From contig NZ_SNYL01000007.1 in the NCBI RefSeq assembly GCF_004363315.1, positions 1-64,000 of the forward strand: a stretch of 64,000 nt of DNA. Direction: 5' to 3'. The first letter of the stretch is position 1. The number at the start of each line of letters is the position of its first letter. The DNA is from Tepidicella xavieri (lineage in GTDB: Bacteria; Pseudomonadota; Gammaproteobacteria; Burkholderiales; Burkholderiaceae_C). This document shows positions 14,286 to 61,603 of this stretch, one piece after another. The notes under the pieces were generated by a model. It was not told the origin of the DNA and did no database searches. It was given only the letters and a program-made list of their open reading frames with translations. Position numbers and translations under genes: made by a program.

Positions 14286-14412
14286 CACGTCTGCAGGGCT
14301 TGGCGGGCGGCAATAACCCCGATGCGCCAGGCGTCAATCCCCAGACGTTCGCCAATCCTGAGCGTTTTGCTTTAGTATTCCATTTCTGCGTTCTGTCCCA
14401 AAGGTTTTCACC

Positions 14413-14778
14413 ATGACTGCAGTTGCCGAACACGTCGATATCGAGATGCCTGCGCCGCTGATTTTCACGGACGCGGCGGCGGCCAAAGTGGCCGACCTGA
14501 TTGCCGAAGAGGGCAACCCCGACCTCAAACTGCGCGTGTTCGTGCAGGGTGGCGGGTGCTCCGGTTTTCAGTATGGCTTCACCTTCGACGAAGTAGTCAA
14601 TGAGGATGACACCCAGATGACCAAGAACGGGGTGACGCTGCTGATCGATGCCATGAGCTACCAATACCTGGTGGGGGCCGAGATCGACTACAAAGAAGAT
14701 TTGCAAGGCGCTCAGTTCGTGATCAAGAACCCGAACGCGACAACCACGTGTGGTTGTGGATCCAGTTTCAGCGTGTGA
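14413..14778 (+). CDS. erpA: iron-sulfur cluster insertion protein ErpA
   Basis: A-type Fe/S carrier, 121 aa, that hands clusters to target enzymes, notably in isoprenoid synthesis. The three ligand cysteines are present: one in [12 protein letters not shown] and two in the C-terminal CGCG. Monocistronic, with a strong terminator 27 bp after the stop. It sits beside anmK, the M23 peptidase and tyrS, an order seen in other beta- and gammaproteobacteria. Confidence 0.95.
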
Positions 14779-25672: not shown

Positions 25673-26653
25673 ATGAGCGCTTCCTCCATCCAGAAAGACA
25701 TCGACGAACGCACCAATCTCACCGGGTCCAACAAGTTCGAGATGCTGTTGTTCCGTCTGGGGGAGGCCCCGGGCAGCGAGCGCTCGGAGCTGTTTGGCAT
25801 CAACGTGTTCAAGATCCGAGAGATCGTGGCCATGCCCGAAGTCACTGCCATGGCCGGCGCCCCGCAGCATGTGCTGGGTGTGGTGAACCTGCGCGGCCAG
25901 GTGATTCCGGTCATCGACCTGCCGGCCGTGGTGGGCTGCGTGCCCAAGACGGGCCTCAACATCATGCTGGTGACCGAGTACGCCCGTACCACCCAGGCGT
26001 TCGCCGCCGAGTCGGTCGAAGACATTGTGCGGTTGGACTGGAGCCAGATCTTGTCGGCCGAGGATTCGATGGCGCGCGGCTACGTGACCAGCATCGCGCG
26101 GCTCGACGGCGACCAAAACACCACCCGGCTGGCCCAGATTCTGGATGTCGAGTCCATCTTGCAGCGCATCTTGCCCAGCCAGGAGGTGGAGGTGAAGGCC
26201 AATGCCGTGGGCCCGGTGGTCAAGATCCGGCCTGGCTCGGTCGTGATCGCGGCGGACGATTCCTTCGTGGCCCGCAGCATGATCGAACAGGAGCTCAAAG
26301 CTTTGGGGCTGCCTTACGAAATGTACAAGACCGGGCAGGAGGCGTGGAACCGCTTGCAAGCGATCGCGGCCGAATGCCAGAAGGCCGGCATGCCTTTCCA
26401 TGACCGCGTGGCCGTCGTGCTGACCGACCTGGAAATGCCCGAAATGGATGGCTTCACCCTGACGCGCAATGTGAAGAAGGACGTGACCATGCGCGGGGTG
26501 CCGGTGGTCATCCACTCTTCCCTGACGGGAGACACCAACGAGAACCACGTGCGCAGCGCGGGCGCGGACGCCTACGTGGCCAAATTCGCGGCCAAGGAAC
26601 TGGCCGACAGCTTGCGGCAGGTGCTGGCGCGCTACGAGGCGGTCGCGGCTTGA
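25673..26653 (+). CDS. cheV: chemotaxis coupling protein CheV
   Basis: 326 aa with a CheW-like domain (about 18-165, LFGINVFKIREIVAMPEV ... VLGVVNLRGQVIPVIDL) followed by a receiver domain (about 185-320) with acidic pocket DD, phospho-acceptor Asp in VVLTDLEMPEMDGF and Lys in AYVAKF. Links receptors to CheA and can be phosphorylated, aiding adaptation. AGGAG sits 8 bases before the ATG. It stands alone; no other chemotaxis gene is near. Confidence 0.93.
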   Translation: MSASSIQKDIDERTNLTGSNKFEMLLFRLGEAPGSERSELFGINVFKIREIVAMPEVTAMAGAPQHVLGVVNLRGQVIPVIDLPAVVGCVPKTGLNIMLVTEYARTTQAFAAESVEDIVRLDWSQILSAEDSMARGYVTSIARLDGDQNTTRLAQILDVESILQRILPSQEVEVKANAVGPVVKIRPGSVVIAADDSFVARSMIEQELKALGLPYEMYKTGQEAWNRLQAIAAECQKAGMPFHDRVAVVLTDLEMPEMDGFTLTRNVKKDVTMRGVPVVIHSSLTGDTNENHVRSAGADAYVAKFAAKELADSLRQVLARYEAVAA

Positions 26654-26696
26654 ACGGCTCCGGTTGAGCGGCCCTGGTCCGGGCGGGCCCTCTGTC

Positions 26697-27347
26697 TCAA
26701 CGCGGCACTTCGGTCACGACCCGCCGTCCTCCGCTGGGGGGCTCGGGGAAACCGTTCAGAGCCGCTTCGACCAAGGCGGCCCAGAACGCTGGCCGGTCGG
26801 GCCAGGGGCCGTCGTGTGCGGCCCGGCTTTCGTAAACGACCGCGCCGGTGCGCCGGTCGCGCAACACGATCGAGAGTTCGCGCTGGTGATAGGGCGTGGG
26901 CATGCGCACGAACAGTGGCATCCACACCACTTGGCCGCTGCCGGTGACCACATAATCCCGCCCAGCCAGCCCCGGGCCCGGCCACGGGTCGAAGGGGCTT
27001 TCCCAAGGTGCATGCGGCAGCCGCTGAGCGCGGGCGCTGACTTCCACCGACCACTTGGCGCTTTCCGTTCCCTGCGGCTCAGGCACCAGCCCCCAGGCGC
27101 CAAGCCGCTCAGCCACCAGGGATTCGAGCCGGCCTTGGGCCTGCGCGTGGGTCTGTTGGGATGGCAGGCGCTCGAACCGAAAGCGGTCGCCCGCCGCAGG
27201 CCGCTCGGCCGCGGGCCATTGGGCATAGCTGCGCACGTCATGGTCCAGCCGGATCACGCTGGCGCACCCCCCGAGCAGCGATGCCAGCGCCAGGCCCAGC
27301 CCGGCCAGGGCCAAGCGCCAGGTGGGTGGATGGGCCAGAGAAGGCAT
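26697..27347 (-). CDS. DUF4136-type lipoprotein
   Basis: 216 aa with an N-terminal hydrophobic segment and lipobox LLGGC (Cys28). The mature domain has the DUF4136 pattern: DVRSYAQWPA, RFRFERLPSQQ and a late ELSIVLRDRRTGAVVYESRA. Envelope protein of unknown function. It is 3 bp after the ttcA stop on the same strand, so it ends the long minus-strand run that starts near 30626. Confidence 0.8.
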   Translation of the reverse strand: MPSLAHPPTWRLALAGLGLALASLLGGCASVIRLDHDVRSYAQWPAAERPAAGDRFRFERLPSQQTHAQAQGRLESLVAERLGAWGLVPEPQGTESAKWSVEVSARAQRLPHAPWESPFDPWPGPGLAGRDYVVTGSGQVVWMPLFVRMPTPYHQRELSIVLRDRRTGAVVYESRAAHDGPWPDRPAFWAALVEAALNGFPEPPSGGRRVVTEVPR

Positions 27348-27350
27348 GGT

Positions 27351-28283
27351 TCAGGGCGTCGGGGTCAAGGCGATGACCTGCTCGGTGGGTAGAGTAGGGG
27401 GCGCGGGCAAGGGTTCCTCGTCGAACGCGGTGTCGCCGCCCTCGTCGGCCACGCCAGTGGTTTGCAGAGTCTCGAACGGAAACAGCTGGCGGTCCATCAG
27501 ATGGCTGGGCACCACGTGCTGCAGGGCCTTGAGCATGTTGTCGAGGCGGCCGGGGAATTTCTTGTCCCATTCGCGCAGCATGTTGCCCACCTGCACGCGC
27601 TGCAGGTTGTCCTGGCTGCCGCACAGCGTGCAGGGGATGATGGGGAATTGCCGCACTTGCGCCCAGCGGATGATGTCCTTCTCGGCCACGTAGGCCAGCG
27701 GGCGGATCACCATGAATTCGCCGTTGTCGCTGACGAGCTTGGCCGGCATGCCCTTGAGCTTGGCGCCGAAGAACATGTTGAGGAACAGCGTCTGCAGAAT
27801 GTCATCGCGGTGGTGGCCCAGGGCAATCTTGTTGCAGCCCAACTCGCGCGCCACCTTGTACAGAATGCCGCGACGCAGCCGGCTGCACAGGCTGCACATG
27901 GTCTTGCCCTCGGGGATCACCTTCTTGACGACGCTGTAAGTGTCCTGCGTCTCGATGTGGAAGGGAATGCCGAGCCGACTCAGGTATTCGGGGAGCACGT
28001 GGGCCGGAAATCCCGGCTGTTTCTGGTCCAGGTTGACGGCCACCAGCTCGAAGTCGATCGGCGCGCGCTGGCGCAGCTTCATCAGGATGTCGAGCAGGGT
28101 GTAGCTGTCCTTGCCGCCCGAGAGACACACCATCACCCGGTCGCCCGCGCCGATCATCTGGTAGTCGGTGATGGCTTCGCCCACCAGGCGGCACAGCCGC
28201 TTTTCCAGCTTGTGGTCTTCGCGCTCGATTTTGAGGGCCTTTTTCGCATCCACGGCTTCTGGCGTGGGGGTGTCGGTCGTCAT
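27351..28283 (-). CDS. ttcA: tRNA 2-thiocytidine(32) synthetase TtcA
   Basis: 310 aa from the ATG at 28283. PP-loop SGGKDSYT activates C32 of tRNA with ATP; the two CxxC pairs CSLC and CTLC hold the 4Fe-4S cluster that delivers sulfur. The C-terminal 40 residues are Pro/Glu-rich and variable. Lies 19 bp after the FolX-like gene in the minus-strand run; no direct functional tie to pterin metabolism is evident. Confidence 0.95.
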
Positions 28284-28302
28284 GTCGTTGTCCTTGGAGG
28301 GG

Positions 28303-28686
28303 TCACCACTGCCCGCTTTCCATGCGGATGGCCACTTCGCAGTCGTCAAAAATTTCCAGCTTCGCGATTCTCACCCGCACCCCGATGACGCCGGGCAACT
28401 GCATCAGCCGGTGGGTGAGCTTGCCGATCAGGCTCTCCAGCAGGTTGACGTGTTCGGCGGTGCACTCGTCGATGATGATCTGGCGCACCTTGCGGTAGTC
28501 CAGCACATGGGAAATGTCGTCGTCGTGCGGCATCAGGGGCTGGGTGCCCTGGTTGAGCTCGGCATCGACCTGGATGGGCTGGGGGCCGTGCTTTTCATGC
28601 TGCAATATGCCCAGGTTGGCATTGAAGCGCAGGCCGGTCAAGGTCAGGATCTGCTGCCCATGCCGTGGGGCTCGATCGTGGTTCAC
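28303..28686 (-). CDS. FolB/FolX family protein, FolX-like
   Basis: 127 aa, T-fold. Active-site residues of the dihydroneopterin aldolase/epimerase family are kept: Tyr64 (VLDYRKV), Glu84 (LLESL) and Lys109 ([17 protein letters not shown]). The LDYRKV ... LLESLIGKL ... IAKL pattern is closer, by eye, to E. coli FolX (dihydroneopterin triphosphate 2'-epimerase) than to FolB, and the SKP motif of FolB is missing. ATG overlaps the stop of the upstream paralogue. The FolX assignment is an inference. Confidence 0.7.
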
Positions 28687-29096
28687 GTGCGGGTCCTTGT
28701 ATGCAGTCGAAACACCTCCACGCCGACGGTTTCGCAGTCGGGATAAACGTCGGGTTTAGAGGTGGACAGTCGCACCGCCAGTACTTGCGGATGTTTGAGA
28801 AGTTCGGTGGCCAGCGCGTCGGCCAGCGTTTCCTGCAGGGTGATGTGTCGTCCCGCGATCAGCCGGGCGACCGCTTCGCGCACATAATCGTAATCCACCA
28901 CTTCATGCAGTGCGTCATGGCTCGGGGTGGATGACTCGTACGGAACATAGAGATCGACATCGATCCAAACCCGCTGCGGCCCGTGCTTCTCGAAGGCGTG
29001 GGCGCCCATGTTCACCATCACTTCGTGACGGCGAAGAAACAGTTTGCGGCAGTGCAGCAGCCAGTGGAGATCCGGGGGGATGGAAGGTGTATTCAT
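28683..29096 (-). CDS. dihydroneopterin aldolase-like protein, FolB-like
   Basis: 137 aa, second T-fold paralogue in tandem. Tyr69 (VVDYDYV), Glu89 (LQETLAD) and Lys114 inside STSKPDVYPDCETVGVEV match FolB catalytic positions, including its SKP motif. FolB cleaves 7,8-dihydroneopterin to 6-hydroxymethyl-dihydropterin in folate synthesis. Overlaps by ATGA both the SDR gene before it and the FolX-like gene after it, so all three are probably translated together. Confidence 0.8.
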   Translation of the reverse strand: MNTPSIPPDLHWLLHCRKLFLRRHEVMVNMGAHAFEKHGPQRVWIDVDLYVPYESSTPSHDALHEVVDYDYVREAVARLIAGRHITLQETLADALATELLKHPQVLAVRLSTSKPDVYPDCETVGVEVFRLHTRTRT

Positions 29097-29896
29097 GGGG
29101 TGTCTGAGGTGGTGTTGCCAAGCAGCTCCTCGACGACAAACATTACGTCACGCTCCAGCGGAACAAGGTGCTGGCCGTTGTCCACGGCAATGGTGACGCC
29201 CGTGATAGAAGGGGTTCGGGCCAAGAACAGGGCTGTCTGGGCCACATCGGCAGGTGAAGTGGGCCGTCGAAGCAGGTTGACGCGGCTGGCTTTGAGCCAG
29301 TTTGCCGTGCTTTGCGGGCCGCTCTCGTACAGCAGGCCAGGGGCCACCCCGCAGACTCGTGCGTGGGGAGCCAGTGCCTGAGCCTGCAAGGCCACCGCGC
29401 GTTCCAAGGCCAGTTTGGAGATGGTGTAGCTGAAATAGTCGGGGTTGAGGTTGAGCACCTTTTGATCCAGCACATGAATCACAAAACGCGATGGAGTCTC
29501 GGTCGCTGGCTCGGTTGCTTGTTTGGCCAGCAAACTGGCCAAACTCAGTGGTGCCAGCAGATTGACCTCGAGTTGACGCCGCGCCTGTTCGGATTCCCAC
29601 TCCAGGCCCGTGTCGGGCTCAAATAGCGAAGCATTGTTGATCAGCCCATCCACGGGTCCAAATCGGTCCAGGATGTGTTCGAACAACTGCGCCCTTTGCT
29701 CTCCATTGGCCAGATCGGCCTGCACCACGTCGATGTGCATGCCCGCCGCGCGGAGTCGCTGTTGCAGTGCTTCGGCTTCGGTTCTGGAGCGATTACAGTG
29801 GCACAGCACGTGCCAGCCAGTCGCTCCAAATGCCAAGCAGAACTCTGCGCCCAGTCGCAACGCACCGCCGGTTATAAGTACCCGTTGTTCAGCCAC
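29093..29896 (-). CDS. SDR oxidoreductase, pteridine reductase/FolM type
   Basis: 267 aa Rossmann reductase: TGGALRLG cofactor motif (9-16), NNAS (87-90) and YTISK (Tyr157, Lys161). The usual catalytic Ser is replaced by Asp144, exactly 13 residues before Tyr157, the arrangement of protozoan pteridine reductase PTR1 and of E. coli FolM (dihydromonapterin reductase). With FolB- and FolX-like genes overlapping downstream, reduction of a dihydropterin is the likely reaction. NADPH preference is suggested by Arg36 and Arg38 in NRSRTEAE. Overlaps the upstream membrane-protein gene by 8 bp. Confidence 0.8.
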   Translation of the reverse strand: MAEQRVLITGGALRLGAEFCLAFGATGWHVLCHCNRSRTEAEALQQRLRAAGMHIDVVQADLANGEQRAQLFEHILDRFGPVDGLINNASLFEPDTGLEWESEQARRQLEVNLLAPLSLASLLAKQATEPATETPSRFVIHVLDQKVLNLNPDYFSYTISKLALERAVALQAQALAPHARVCGVAPGLLYESGPQSTANWLKASRVNLLRRPTSPADVAQTALFLARTPSITGVTIAVDNGQHLVPLERDVMFVVEELLGNTTSDTP

Positions 29897-30626
29897 GGTG
29901 AGCCTCGATCATTCCACGTATGAAAAACGCCAAATCCTGCGCGAAGTACAGTCGCCGGGCCGGATCGAGCAGGAAATCCTCGTGGAGTGTACGCGTGAGC
30001 ACAAGCCCCGTCATGCCGCTGCGGTGTTCGGGAGTGTCGCTGAGCGCATAGCCCTCGCGTTGTGCGCCTTCCAGGCAAGACTGCAAAGATGACGAACGTT
30101 TGAAATAGGCCGTTGCGTACTCCAGATCGGGGGCGTGAGGCAGCAAGAGGACAAGATTGACTTTGTTGACGTTGAGTTCGACGATGAAATGCAGAATGGC
30201 TGTTTTTGTTTCGGCACCGGGAGGCAGGACGTGGTAGTCGGCGCAGCAGCCGTTGGTTCGGGTGTGCAGTCGAGGTATCCAGCCCGCAGGTTCGAAAGGG
30301 CGGGCGTTAAAATTCTCATGCAGGGCGGTGGGGATGTCCTCATTTAGAACGCTGTGTGTCAGGCTCTTGAGTCGGCGTAGTCCGCCGTCACCAAATACCA
30401 AAGCCACCACCATCAGGCCCACGGGCAGTCCTACCGTCATCATGGTGATGCCGGCAGCAATGGCATCCTTGTCTCGTGACAGCATGCCATTGACCAGCAG
30501 TCCGAGCGCATTGGCCAGGGTGAACAGCATGATGATGGCCAGAGCCACTTTGGCCCAGCGGGGTAGGGCCAGCAATTTGAGCCAGCGGATCAGGTCGTTC
30601 GACAGCCGCGCATTGTCTTGGAGCAT
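29889..30626 (-). CDS. two-helix membrane protein of unknown family
   Basis: 245 aa, not recognised. A short basic/amphipathic N-terminus is followed by two hydrophobic helices (about 27-48 and 57-78) and a soluble C-terminal domain of about 160 residues with mixed alpha/beta character, probably cytoplasmic. There are two adjacent Cys (NGCCADYH) and one later Cys. It heads the minus-strand run SDR-FolB-FolX-ttcA, overlapping the SDR gene by 8 bp, and its ATG is only 7 bp from the divergent midA start. Confidence 0.75.
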   Translation of the reverse strand: MLQDNARLSNDLIRWLKLLALPRWAKVALAIIMLFTLANALGLLVNGMLSRDKDAIAAGITMMTVGLPVGLMVVALVFGDGGLRRLKSLTHSVLNEDIPTALHENFNARPFEPAGWIPRLHTRTNGCCADYHVLPPGAETKTAILHFIVELNVNKVNLVLLLPHAPDLEYATAYFKRSSSLQSCLEGAQREGYALSDTPEHRSGMTGLVLTRTLHEDFLLDPARRLYFAQDLAFFIRGMIEAHRG

Positions 30627-30633
30627 ATTGGAG

Positions 30634-31755
30634 ATGTCGTGGGTGTCTGATGCAGACGATCTGGAGAAAGCGATCCGGCATGCAGCGGCCAGATCGGGCG
30701 GGTGGTTAGGCTTTGAGCGATTTATGCAGATTGCCCTGTATCACCCGCAAGGGGGGTATTATGCGGGCGACACTCCCATCTTTGGGACTGGCCTGGGTGA
30801 TGGCAGCGACTTCATCACCGCCCCGGAGCTGTCGCCTCGTTTTGGCGAGACGCTGGGTCGGCAGGTGGCGCAGGCGTTGGCCGCCACCGGGGTCCATGAG
30901 GTCTGGGAGTTTGGGGCGGGTTCGGGGGCTTTGGCCGATCAGGTTTTGAGCCGCTTGCAGGCCGAAAGCGTGCCGCTGCGCAGCTACACCATTGTGGAGG
31001 TGTCGGCCAGCTTGCGCCAGCGTCAGCAGGCGCGGCTGACGCGCTGGGGGGGGCGGGTGCGCTGGGTGTCAGCGTTGCCGCAGACGCTGGAAGCGGTGCT
31101 GCTGGGCAACGAGGTGCTCGACGCCATGCCCGTGCGCCTGCTCGTGCGCCAGGCGGGCACTTGGCACGAGCGGGGGGTGGCGGTTCGCGAGGCCCCGGAT
31201 GGTGCTGTGCGATTGAGCTGGGCCGATTGCCCCACCGCGCTGCGTCCCCCGGTGGAGGTGCCTGGGGCGCATGACTATCTCACCGAGATCCATCCCCAGG
31301 CCGAGGCATTCGTGCGCACGGTGGGTGAGCGTCTGCGGCGTGGGGCGGCCTTTTTCATCGACTATGGCTTTCCCGAAGCCGAGTACTACCACGCGCAACG
31401 CCACATGGGCACCTTGATGTGCCATCGCTTGCACCGCAGCGACAGCGACCCGCTGAGCGACGTGGGCCGCAAAGACATCACCGCCCATGTGAATTTCACG
31501 GGCATTGCCCTGGCTGCCCAGGAGGCCGGGCTGGACGTGCTGGGCTACACCAGCCAGGGCCGTTTTCTGCTCAACGCGGGCTTGCTCGATGGGCTGGACA
31601 GCCTGCCTTTGGCCCAGCGGGCGCCTGTGCTGAAGCTCGTCCACGAGCATGAGATGGGCGAACTGTTCAAGGTGATCGGCTTCGCGCCGCCGGCCAGCAG
31701 CCGCGGCTGGACGCCGGTGGGTTTTGCCCAGGGCGACCGCACGCATACGCTATGA
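30634..31755 (+). CDS. MidA/NDUFAF7-like SAM-dependent methyltransferase
   Basis: 373 aa, DUF185 family; the mitochondrial member methylates an arginine of complex I. Typical N-terminal segment FMQIALYHPQGGYYAG, then FITAPELSPRFGETLGRQVA, SAM motif FGAGSGALADQVL, and FFIDYGFPEAEYYHAQR. The start is ambiguous: ATG at 30634 has GGAG directly against it and another GGAG 10 bases up; GTG at 30643 would have better spacing. Interestingly an NDUFA9-like gene lies 3.6 kb away. Confidence 0.85.
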   Translation: MSWVSDADDLEKAIRHAAARSGGWLGFERFMQIALYHPQGGYYAGDTPIFGTGLGDGSDFITAPELSPRFGETLGRQVAQALAATGVHEVWEFGAGSGALADQVLSRLQAESVPLRSYTIVEVSASLRQRQQARLTRWGGRVRWVSALPQTLEAVLLGNEVLDAMPVRLLVRQAGTWHERGVAVREAPDGAVRLSWADCPTALRPPVEVPGAHDYLTEIHPQAEAFVRTVGERLRRGAAFFIDYGFPEAEYYHAQRHMGTLMCHRLHRSDSDPLSDVGRKDITAHVNFTGIALAAQEAGLDVLGYTSQGRFLLNAGLLDGLDSLPLAQRAPVLKLVHEHEMGELFKVIGFAPPASSRGWTPVGFAQGDRTHTL

Positions 31756-31765
31756 GGGGCTGGTC

Positions 31766-31960
31766 ATGATCCGCTGGGTGATCGTCATTTTCCTGGCGTT
31801 GCTGCTCATCAGCTGGTTCACGCCGCTGCTGCAGAAGCTGGGCTTCGGTCGCCTGCCGGGTGACTTGCGTTTTCGGGCCTTTGGCCGTGAGTGGTTTCTG
31901 CCGGTGACGACCACCTTGCTGTTGAGCATGGCGGCGAGCCTCATCGCCAAGCTGGTTTGA
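31766..31960 (+). CDS. DUF2905 small membrane protein
   Basis: 64 aa with two hydrophobic helices (about 2-19 and 46-61) around the conserved loop GFGRLPGDLRF. Inner-membrane protein of unknown function. Begins 10 bp after the midA stop, probably co-transcribed. Confidence 0.85.
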   Translation: MIRWVIVIFLALLLISWFTPLLQKLGFGRLPGDLRFRAFGREWFLPVTTTLLLSMAASLIAKLV

Positions 31961-31976
31961 TACCTGGGTGGGTATC
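31959..31976. repeat. inverted repeat upstream of trxC
   Basis: GATACC and GGTATC, perfect 6-bp arms with a 6-base spacer, at the end of the DUF2905 gene and 62 bp before the trxC ATG. It does not match the OxyR pattern, which might be expected for trxC. Possible operator; weak. Confidence 0.3.
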
Positions 31977-32037
31977 TATTGAAATCCGCTCCATGGGCCG
32001 CATTTGGGGAGCAGATTCGATTCGAGAGGTCCCCCCC

Positions 32038-60593: not shown

Positions 60594-61603
<1,010 letters not shown>

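Follow-up and report, generated by a model that had tools for sequence, protein, structure and literature searches.

The pteridine reductases of Agrobacterium and Brucella form the PruA group, which is separate from FolM of Escherichia coli and Pseudomonas aeruginosa, and Agrobacterium PruA reduces dihydromonapterin to tetrahydromonapterin, dihydrofolate being no effective substrate (accessible sections of PMC13259868). The motif TGX3RXG is described as marking enzymes of the PTR1/FolM type (accessible sections of PMC1971073 and PMC13259868). FolB enzymes also epimerize dihydroneopterin to dihydromonapterin (accessible sections of PMC4176595 and PMC1971073), and the sections of PMC3405516 that are accessible describe FolX as a gene carried by gammaproteobacteria only. 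In Burkholderia pseudomallei, a branch of the same shape as the one discussed here has been proposed, in which the reductase would supply tetrahydromonapterin, and mutations in the folM-type reductase contribute to sulfonamide resistance (PMC5587915, accessible sections; PMC5705918), which gives this branch point practical weight. Here we describe a locus of Tepidicella xavieri in which a PruA-like short-chain dehydrogenase/reductase (SDR) precedes two genes of the dihydroneopterin aldolase family, FolB-A and FolB-B. It lies in a window of 64,000 nucleotides, the whole stretch of DNA that was analyzed (assembly GCF_004363315.1, contig NZ_SNYL01000007.1, positions 1 to 64,000).

The three genes were found on the minus strand exactly where the first-pass annotation of the window had placed them: the SDR at 29093..29896 (267 amino acids, GTG start), FolB-A at 28683..29096 (137 amino acids, with an SKP motif) and FolB-B at 28303..28686 (127 amino acids, with AKL at that site). 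The ATGA overlap that had been reported for both junctions is present between the SDR and FolB-A, but the junction of FolB-A and FolB-B reads GTGA. We consider it reasonably probable that these genes form a pterin branch-point operon in which the PruA-like SDR feeds the cofactor supply of phenylalanine hydroxylase (PhhA), FolB-B is the housekeeping FolB, and FolB-A arrived together with the reductase. The substrates, the direction of flux and the division of labor we infer from the enzymology established for other members of the same families. FolE would supply dihydroneopterin triphosphate, which would be dephosphorylated, and FolB-B would then cleave dihydroneopterin for folate synthesis. 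Monapterin would arise from the epimerase side activity of an ordinary FolB, not from FolX, and the SDR, using NADPH, would reduce a dihydropterin, most likely 7,8-dihydromonapterin, to tetrahydromonapterin, which would be used by PhhA and recycled by PhhB. FolB-A would be a second aldolase/epimerase that came with the reductase (here also with an open reading frame [ORF] of unknown family), displaced the native reductase, remains subject to purifying selection and probably serves the SDR, to which it may supply the epimer. The pathway itself is known; its arrangement here is unusual and apparently exchangeable.

The assignment of the SDR to the pteridine reductases held up. The protein scored 85.4 against Pfam PF00106 (cut-off, 26.6) and carries Asp144, Tyr157 and Lys161, the PTR1/FolM triad at the residue numbers first proposed, together with Arg14 of TGX3RXG (in place of TGX3GXG) and the YX3K motif. 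Among 102 aligned SDRs (101 from loci of the family to which the window's genome belongs, plus E. coli FolM), the Asp, Tyr and Lys were unchanged throughout and the Arg was present in 101, with a gap at that position in the last one. Its best NCBIfam model was PRK09134 (244 bits, below the cut-off of 281), and on the E. coli FolM model PRK06483 it reached 88.4 bits (cut-off, 249; E. coli FolM control, 415). The best solved relatives were 5tgd, named "FolM Alternative dihydrofolate reductase" (E value of 2.4e-39), and 5bt9 (E value of 2.5e-39); we take both to be Brucella proteins of the PruA group, to which PRK09134 presumably also belongs. The SDR resembles PruA more closely than it does E. 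coli FolM, at scores below the curated cut-offs. Named sequences yielded 442 loci with a relative of the window SDR, and among the best 80, which were analyzed, the closest SDR was that of Tepidimonas thermarum (84%), the window's own genome possibly not being represented in that set. No second SDR matching that of the window at an E value of 1e-10 was found in its own genome (2.79 Mb in 36 contigs; completeness listed as 100%). The same genome has one folA, one folE and one FolK gene, and the presence of folA ruled out the SDR as a substitute for an absent FolA.

A search for phhA elsewhere in the genome, suggested in the first-pass annotation, located it in an hpd-phhB-phhA cluster (L190) whose genes are adjacent on one strand, away from the window locus (TIGR01267, 347.3 versus 264.75; NF002018, 126.8 versus 108; TIGR01263, 391.7 versus 277). 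The co-occurrence of reductase and phhA was surveyed across 120 genomes of the family, 119 of which have FolB-family genes; the other (G402) had no FolB match and stands outside the 119, and additional FolB matches of G348 and G369 were not included. A reductase of this type was present in all 66 genomes with phhA, within 3 kb of FolB in 63 and elsewhere in three (G304, G349 and G373; 298-367 bits). Fourteen genomes lack the reductase (best background match, 158.7 bits), and phhA was found in none of them (Fisher p of 4.8e-6, with relatedness not removed). The reductase half of the earlier interpretation, which had read the locus as a FolX-plus-FolM route to tetrahydromonapterin, is well supported, whereas the FolX half is not. 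The presence of a second FolB was rejected as a marker of PhhA, since phhA was present in 9 of 17 genomes carrying the A and B pair, compared with 57 of the 102 others (p = 1); likewise, it occurred in 17 of 30 genomes with two or more FolB types and in 49 of 89 without (p = 1). It was also observed that nine of the 14 genomes lacking both reductase and phhA fall in one ten-row FolB-B clade (L143, L145, L146, L148, L149, L153, L154, L155 and L156) and that one genome with a normal phhA has a second, weaker Biopterin_H match (G356:C57:92946-93491; 47.9 bits).

The two FolB genes and the reductase appear to have different histories. FolB-B is 91% identical and the downstream ttcA 94% identical to their counterparts in a genome of the same genus (G387), in which B is the sole FolB found and is directly preceded by a reductase of another subtype, termed S (GC content at third codon positions [GC3] of 84.6%), only 38% identical to the window SDR. 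The ttcA gene (tRNA 2-thiocytidine synthetase; PRK10696, 479.2 bits versus a cut-off of 272) is the native neighbor, listed as an ORF at 27351..28349 on the minus strand, its true start probably being the ATG at 28283. When positions 26601-32000 of the window were compared by blastn with the same-genus locus (L070), the flanks matched at 81.6% (2010 bp) and 76.2% (1201 bp), and the stretch 28658..30802, a feature without strand, had almost no DNA match, the sole one inside it being 122 bp at 68.9% within the SDR. This stretch takes in the SDR, FolB-A and an ORF of 245 amino acids at 29889..30626 on the minus strand, an open frame that shares 8 bases with the start of the SDR gene and is perhaps the first gene of a cassette. 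The ORF had no Pfam or NCBIfam match at 0.001. Homologues preceding a T-type reductase (the subtype of the window SDR, described below) were found in three family loci (G323, G359 and G325) and in 5 of the 80 named loci (L248, L259, L270, L319 and L261), with a weak match in a fourth family locus, G332 (2e-5); being present in so few loci, it is not a fixed component of the cassette. The GC3 values of the SDR (67.5%), FolB-A (68.8%) and the 245-amino-acid ORF (68.3%) stand apart from those of FolB-B (85.2%), ttcA (88.4%) and two nearby genes that on inspection by eye resemble cca and ruvB (83.6% and 92.1%). The median over 45 gene-like ORFs of the window was 82%, the SDR being second lowest, and in T. 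thermarum the values were 58.5% for the SDR, about 59% for A and about 93% for B.

The reductase tree separated a T type (19 rows, 16 from genomes with A and B and 3 from A-only genomes), to which the window SDR belongs, from the S type (82 rows) with a branch support of 100. In the named set, FolB-A accompanied a T-type SDR in all 80 loci, and B was also present in 54. Three of these loci (L251, L253 and L261, one being from Rhodoferax antarcticus) have the gene order S-SDR, T-SDR, A, B, ttcA and are likely intermediates, the order that would result if an insertion preceded loss of the old reductase. The SDR, FolB-A and the unknown ORF look like a cassette, FolB-B looks native and vertically inherited, and we infer that the stretch was gained in the window genome, not replaced in its congener. 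Transfer is the simplest reading for the window genome; across the family, repeated loss is also possible. Because of its vertical inheritance and the B-only congener, FolB-B is the likelier housekeeping FolB. The first-pass annotation had given FolB-A the FolB motif, called the other copy FolX-like and left the housekeeping role to be tested; the roles that this suggests are probably reversed, given that B closely matches the sole FolB of the congener and A lies in the stretch absent there.

Model scores placed both window proteins in the FolB family. Both passed PF02152 (FolB-A, 76.3; FolB-B, 69.7; cut-off, 31.8), and both fell under the TIGR00525 cut-off of 72.15 (51.0 and 48.8; E. coli FolB, 94.2; E. 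coli FolX, 59.8). On the FolX model PRK11245 (cut-off, 152), FolB-B reached 31.8, E. coli FolX as control reached 226.5, and window FolB-A gave no match at 0.001. The best solved relative of FolB-B was an aldolase (38.1 bits), with two FolX structures at 17.6 and 17.2 bits; that of FolB-A was 3V9O, named dihydroneopterin aldolase (E value of 4.8e-42). The residues E21, Y53, E73 and K98 (E. coli numbering), described as catalytic or binding residues of FolB (accessible sections of PMC4176595), were kept in 51/51 A proteins, 78/78 B proteins and all C proteins, the third clade being introduced below; as E. coli FolX also has all four, they cannot separate FolB from FolX. The SKP motif that the first-pass annotation had cited for FolB, set against KL, failed to make that separation as well, because P. 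aeruginosa FolX reads DKP at this site in the alignment.

The FolB tree resolved clades A (51 rows; support, 97), B (78 rows; 99) and C (18 rows; 93), but with few columns, many weak forks and the E. coli FolB and FolX sequences on very long branches, it gives no placement of A and B relative to FolX. By type, the 119 genomes comprised 60 with B only, 22 with A only, 16 with A and B, 11 with A and C, 4 with C only and 6 with other combinations. FolK was found in 117 of the 120 genomes (the others being two A-only and one A+B), among them all 60 B-only and 20 of the 22 A-only genomes. That a sole FolB coexists with FolK in so many genomes is hard to reconcile with a dedicated FolX role for either protein, barring an unrelated aldolase, for which no search was made. 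The low FolX-model scores and the description of FolX as a gammaproteobacterial gene (PMC3405516) point the same way. FolB-B might still have some activity on the triphosphate. Both FolB-family genes of the window's own genome lie at this locus, and no third was found elsewhere in that genome. In a wider search of 300 genomes across the order, FolB was found in 295, with two copies in 3 of 10 genomes from the window's family. Clade C genes (L189, L192, L193, L195 and others) stand with neither an SDR of this kind nor ttcA within reach, and in four genomes a C gene is the sole FolB-family gene found.

The evolutionary rates of the two FolB proteins were then compared with that of ttcA, leaving aside genomes without ttcA in the fetched stretch, which are likewise missing from the ttcA tree. 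Mean protein distances were 0.431 for A, 0.185 for B and 0.266 for ttcA over 13 tandem genomes (G391 and G395 excluded), 0.256 for A and 0.301 for ttcA over 21 A-only genomes, and 0.254 for B and 0.271 for ttcA over 50 B-only genomes. In the named set, of which 69 of the 80 loci entered, the ratio of A to ttcA distance was 1.72 with B (48 loci) and 0.85 without B (21 loci); none of 1000 label shuffles reached this difference, a result that yields no probability because the labels cluster by clade. Median dN/dS values, taken from at most 60 random, non-independent pairs per group, were 0.20 for A with B, 0.11 for A without B and 0.11 for B. Across the family, the evolutionary rate of A is about doubled in the presence of B, and B then carries the constraint.

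Several observations weigh against the branch-point reading in one or another of its parts. When the window is compared with T. thermarum, dN is nearly equal for A and B (0.051 and 0.054), and dS is higher in A (1.33) than in B (0.53), so that in this lineage A is well conserved; the ttcA figure for this pair (dN of 0.17, probably from a wrong frame) was not used. The GC3 of other nearby gene-like ORFs is 76-80%, and an ORF at 14362-14775 that resembles a core iron-sulfur gene has 69.6%, so that composition favors transfer but falls short of proof. The GC3 contrast was rejected as a general mark of transfer, most other tandem loci showing none and low values not being unique to the cassette within the window. 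The tandem state required 14 changes on the ttcA tree (101 rows), which repeated loss could equally have produced. An independent-pairs test of reductase and phhA on the same tree found three well-supported pairs, none contrary, and had no power; with few lineages and three usable pairs, the Fisher p overstates the evidence. Moreover, phhA is missing from 40 of the 106 genomes that bear the reductase, and PhhA therefore cannot be its sole use. Finally, some features of the FolB proteins lean toward FolX. The A-type protein of G245 scored 49.5 on the FolX model, 47.3 on TIGR00525 and 27.9 on the E. coli FolB model, and B of G387 scored 31.2 on the FolX model versus 25.2 on the E. coli FolB model; among three B, A and C relatives, those of types B and A scored higher on the FolX model than on that of E. 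coli FolB, all values being far under the cut-off. FolB-B has Ile17, Ile47, Arg54, Leu72 and Leu99 (E. coli FolB numbering) in common with E. coli FolX. Three of these residues (Ile17, Ile47 and Leu72) also occur in clade C, position 99 is Pro in P. aeruginosa FolX, and Arg54, present in 78/78 B proteins, is the best remaining FolX-like hint. The near-equal dN of A and B in the window lineage and the further window gene with GC3 near 70% lowered our confidence in the branch-point operon slightly.

For the role of FolB-A beside FolB-B, two opposite views seem to us possible, each to the same limited degree. In one, the two proteins are plain redundant aldolases, A having hitchhiked with the reductase without any particular function of its own. 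The faster evolution of A where B is present would fit this, as would the A protein of G391, which is strongly diverged (end branch 10; L085:3427-3870). Against redundancy stand the four catalytic residues kept in every A protein, the low dN of A relative to its dS in the window lineage and the constant company of the T-type SDR in the named loci. In the other, more ambitious view, the T-type reductase, FolB-A and, in this window, the unknown ORF would make up a transferable tetrahydropterin cassette, in which FolB-A serves as a dedicated monapterin-forming partner of its reductase. It would be a functional counterpart of FolX with a separate origin in betaproteobacteria, and folate synthesis would be left to FolB-B. 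The G391 gene stands beside a reductase that is also very diverged and retains the four catalytic residues; its A protein was excluded from the A model, and G391 from the reductase models.

It is unlikely that the reductase serves mainly pterin signaling through a periplasmic receptor of the PruR type, as with Agrobacterium PruA, with PhhA use being secondary. PruA-PruR signaling has been described (accessible sections of PMC13259868), and a PruR homologue in the window's own genome (L239:1237-1785, contig C3; E value of 1.9e-35 to 7kos) is encoded by a gene that overlaps a histidine kinase gene, both of which would favor this explanation. However, PruR homologues (E value of <1e-20) were, counted by eye, present in 41 of the 120 genomes and in 6 of the 14 without reductase, so that neither gene tracks the other, and PruR was rejected as a co-occurring partner of the reductase. 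Five of the nine reductase-less genomes in the FolB-B clade noted above keep a PruR homologue at that threshold. As an observation in its own right, the receptor and kinase genes at L239:1237-3203 may form a pterin-sensing pair. Least probable of all is the arrangement toward which the first-pass annotation leaned, with FolB-A as housekeeping FolB and FolB-B as a FolX-type epimerase that acts on dihydroneopterin triphosphate and feeds the SDR: the five residues shared with E. coli FolX, the FolX-model match of B but not of window A and the kinship of A with 3V9O speak for it, and it is opposed by the size of that match relative to its cut-off, the lead of an aldolase among the solved relatives of B, the 60 FolK genomes (the congener included) in which B is the sole FolB-family gene, and the absence of any link between A+B and phhA.

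Elsewhere in the window, positions 60936-61403 encode an Oxidored_molyb domain (107 bits), perhaps from what we take to be an MsrP-like methionine sulfoxide reductase gene. In the open-licence literature, no report was found that joins pteridine reductase with dihydroneopterin aldolase in betaproteobacteria, none that joins folB, pteridine reductase and horizontal gene transfer, and none that joins phenylalanine hydroxylase, pteridine reductase and Chromobacterium. Should FolX occur in gammaproteobacteria alone, bacteria outside that group must form tetrahydromonapterin without it, and the family surveyed here, in which genomes may have A alone, B alone or both, or lack the reductase, offers natural contrasts for asking whether an ordinary FolB suffices and what a second copy is worth. 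The locus also carries a warning that the SKP/KL motif is no guide to FolB versus FolX.

Compared with known systems, FolB-A and FolB-B share with described FolB enzymes the fold family, the catalytic Glu/Tyr/Glu/Lys set and the position of sole FolB in many folate-making genomes; they depart from a typical FolB in that both copies lie under the TIGR00525 cut-off and stand in tandem. With the FolX/FolM route of E. coli and P. aeruginosa, the locus has in common the motif class of the reductase, the adjoining FolB-family genes and a phhA gene in the genome; unlike that route, it includes no FolX by model score, and its SDR falls outside the FolM equivalog. The PruA systems of Agrobacterium and Brucella are closer to the window SDR than FolM is, both in model score and in solved relatives, and TGX3RXG and YX3K are common to both; they differ in that the SDR sits in an operon with FolB and ttcA, stays below the PRK09134 cut-off, and has a PruR homologue in its own genome yet no co-occurrence with PruR across the family. 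The folM-folE pair of B. pseudomallei is likewise a pteridine reductase in a PhhA-bearing bacterium, and there the reductase adjoins folE, whereas the window SDR adjoins two FolB genes and ttcA.

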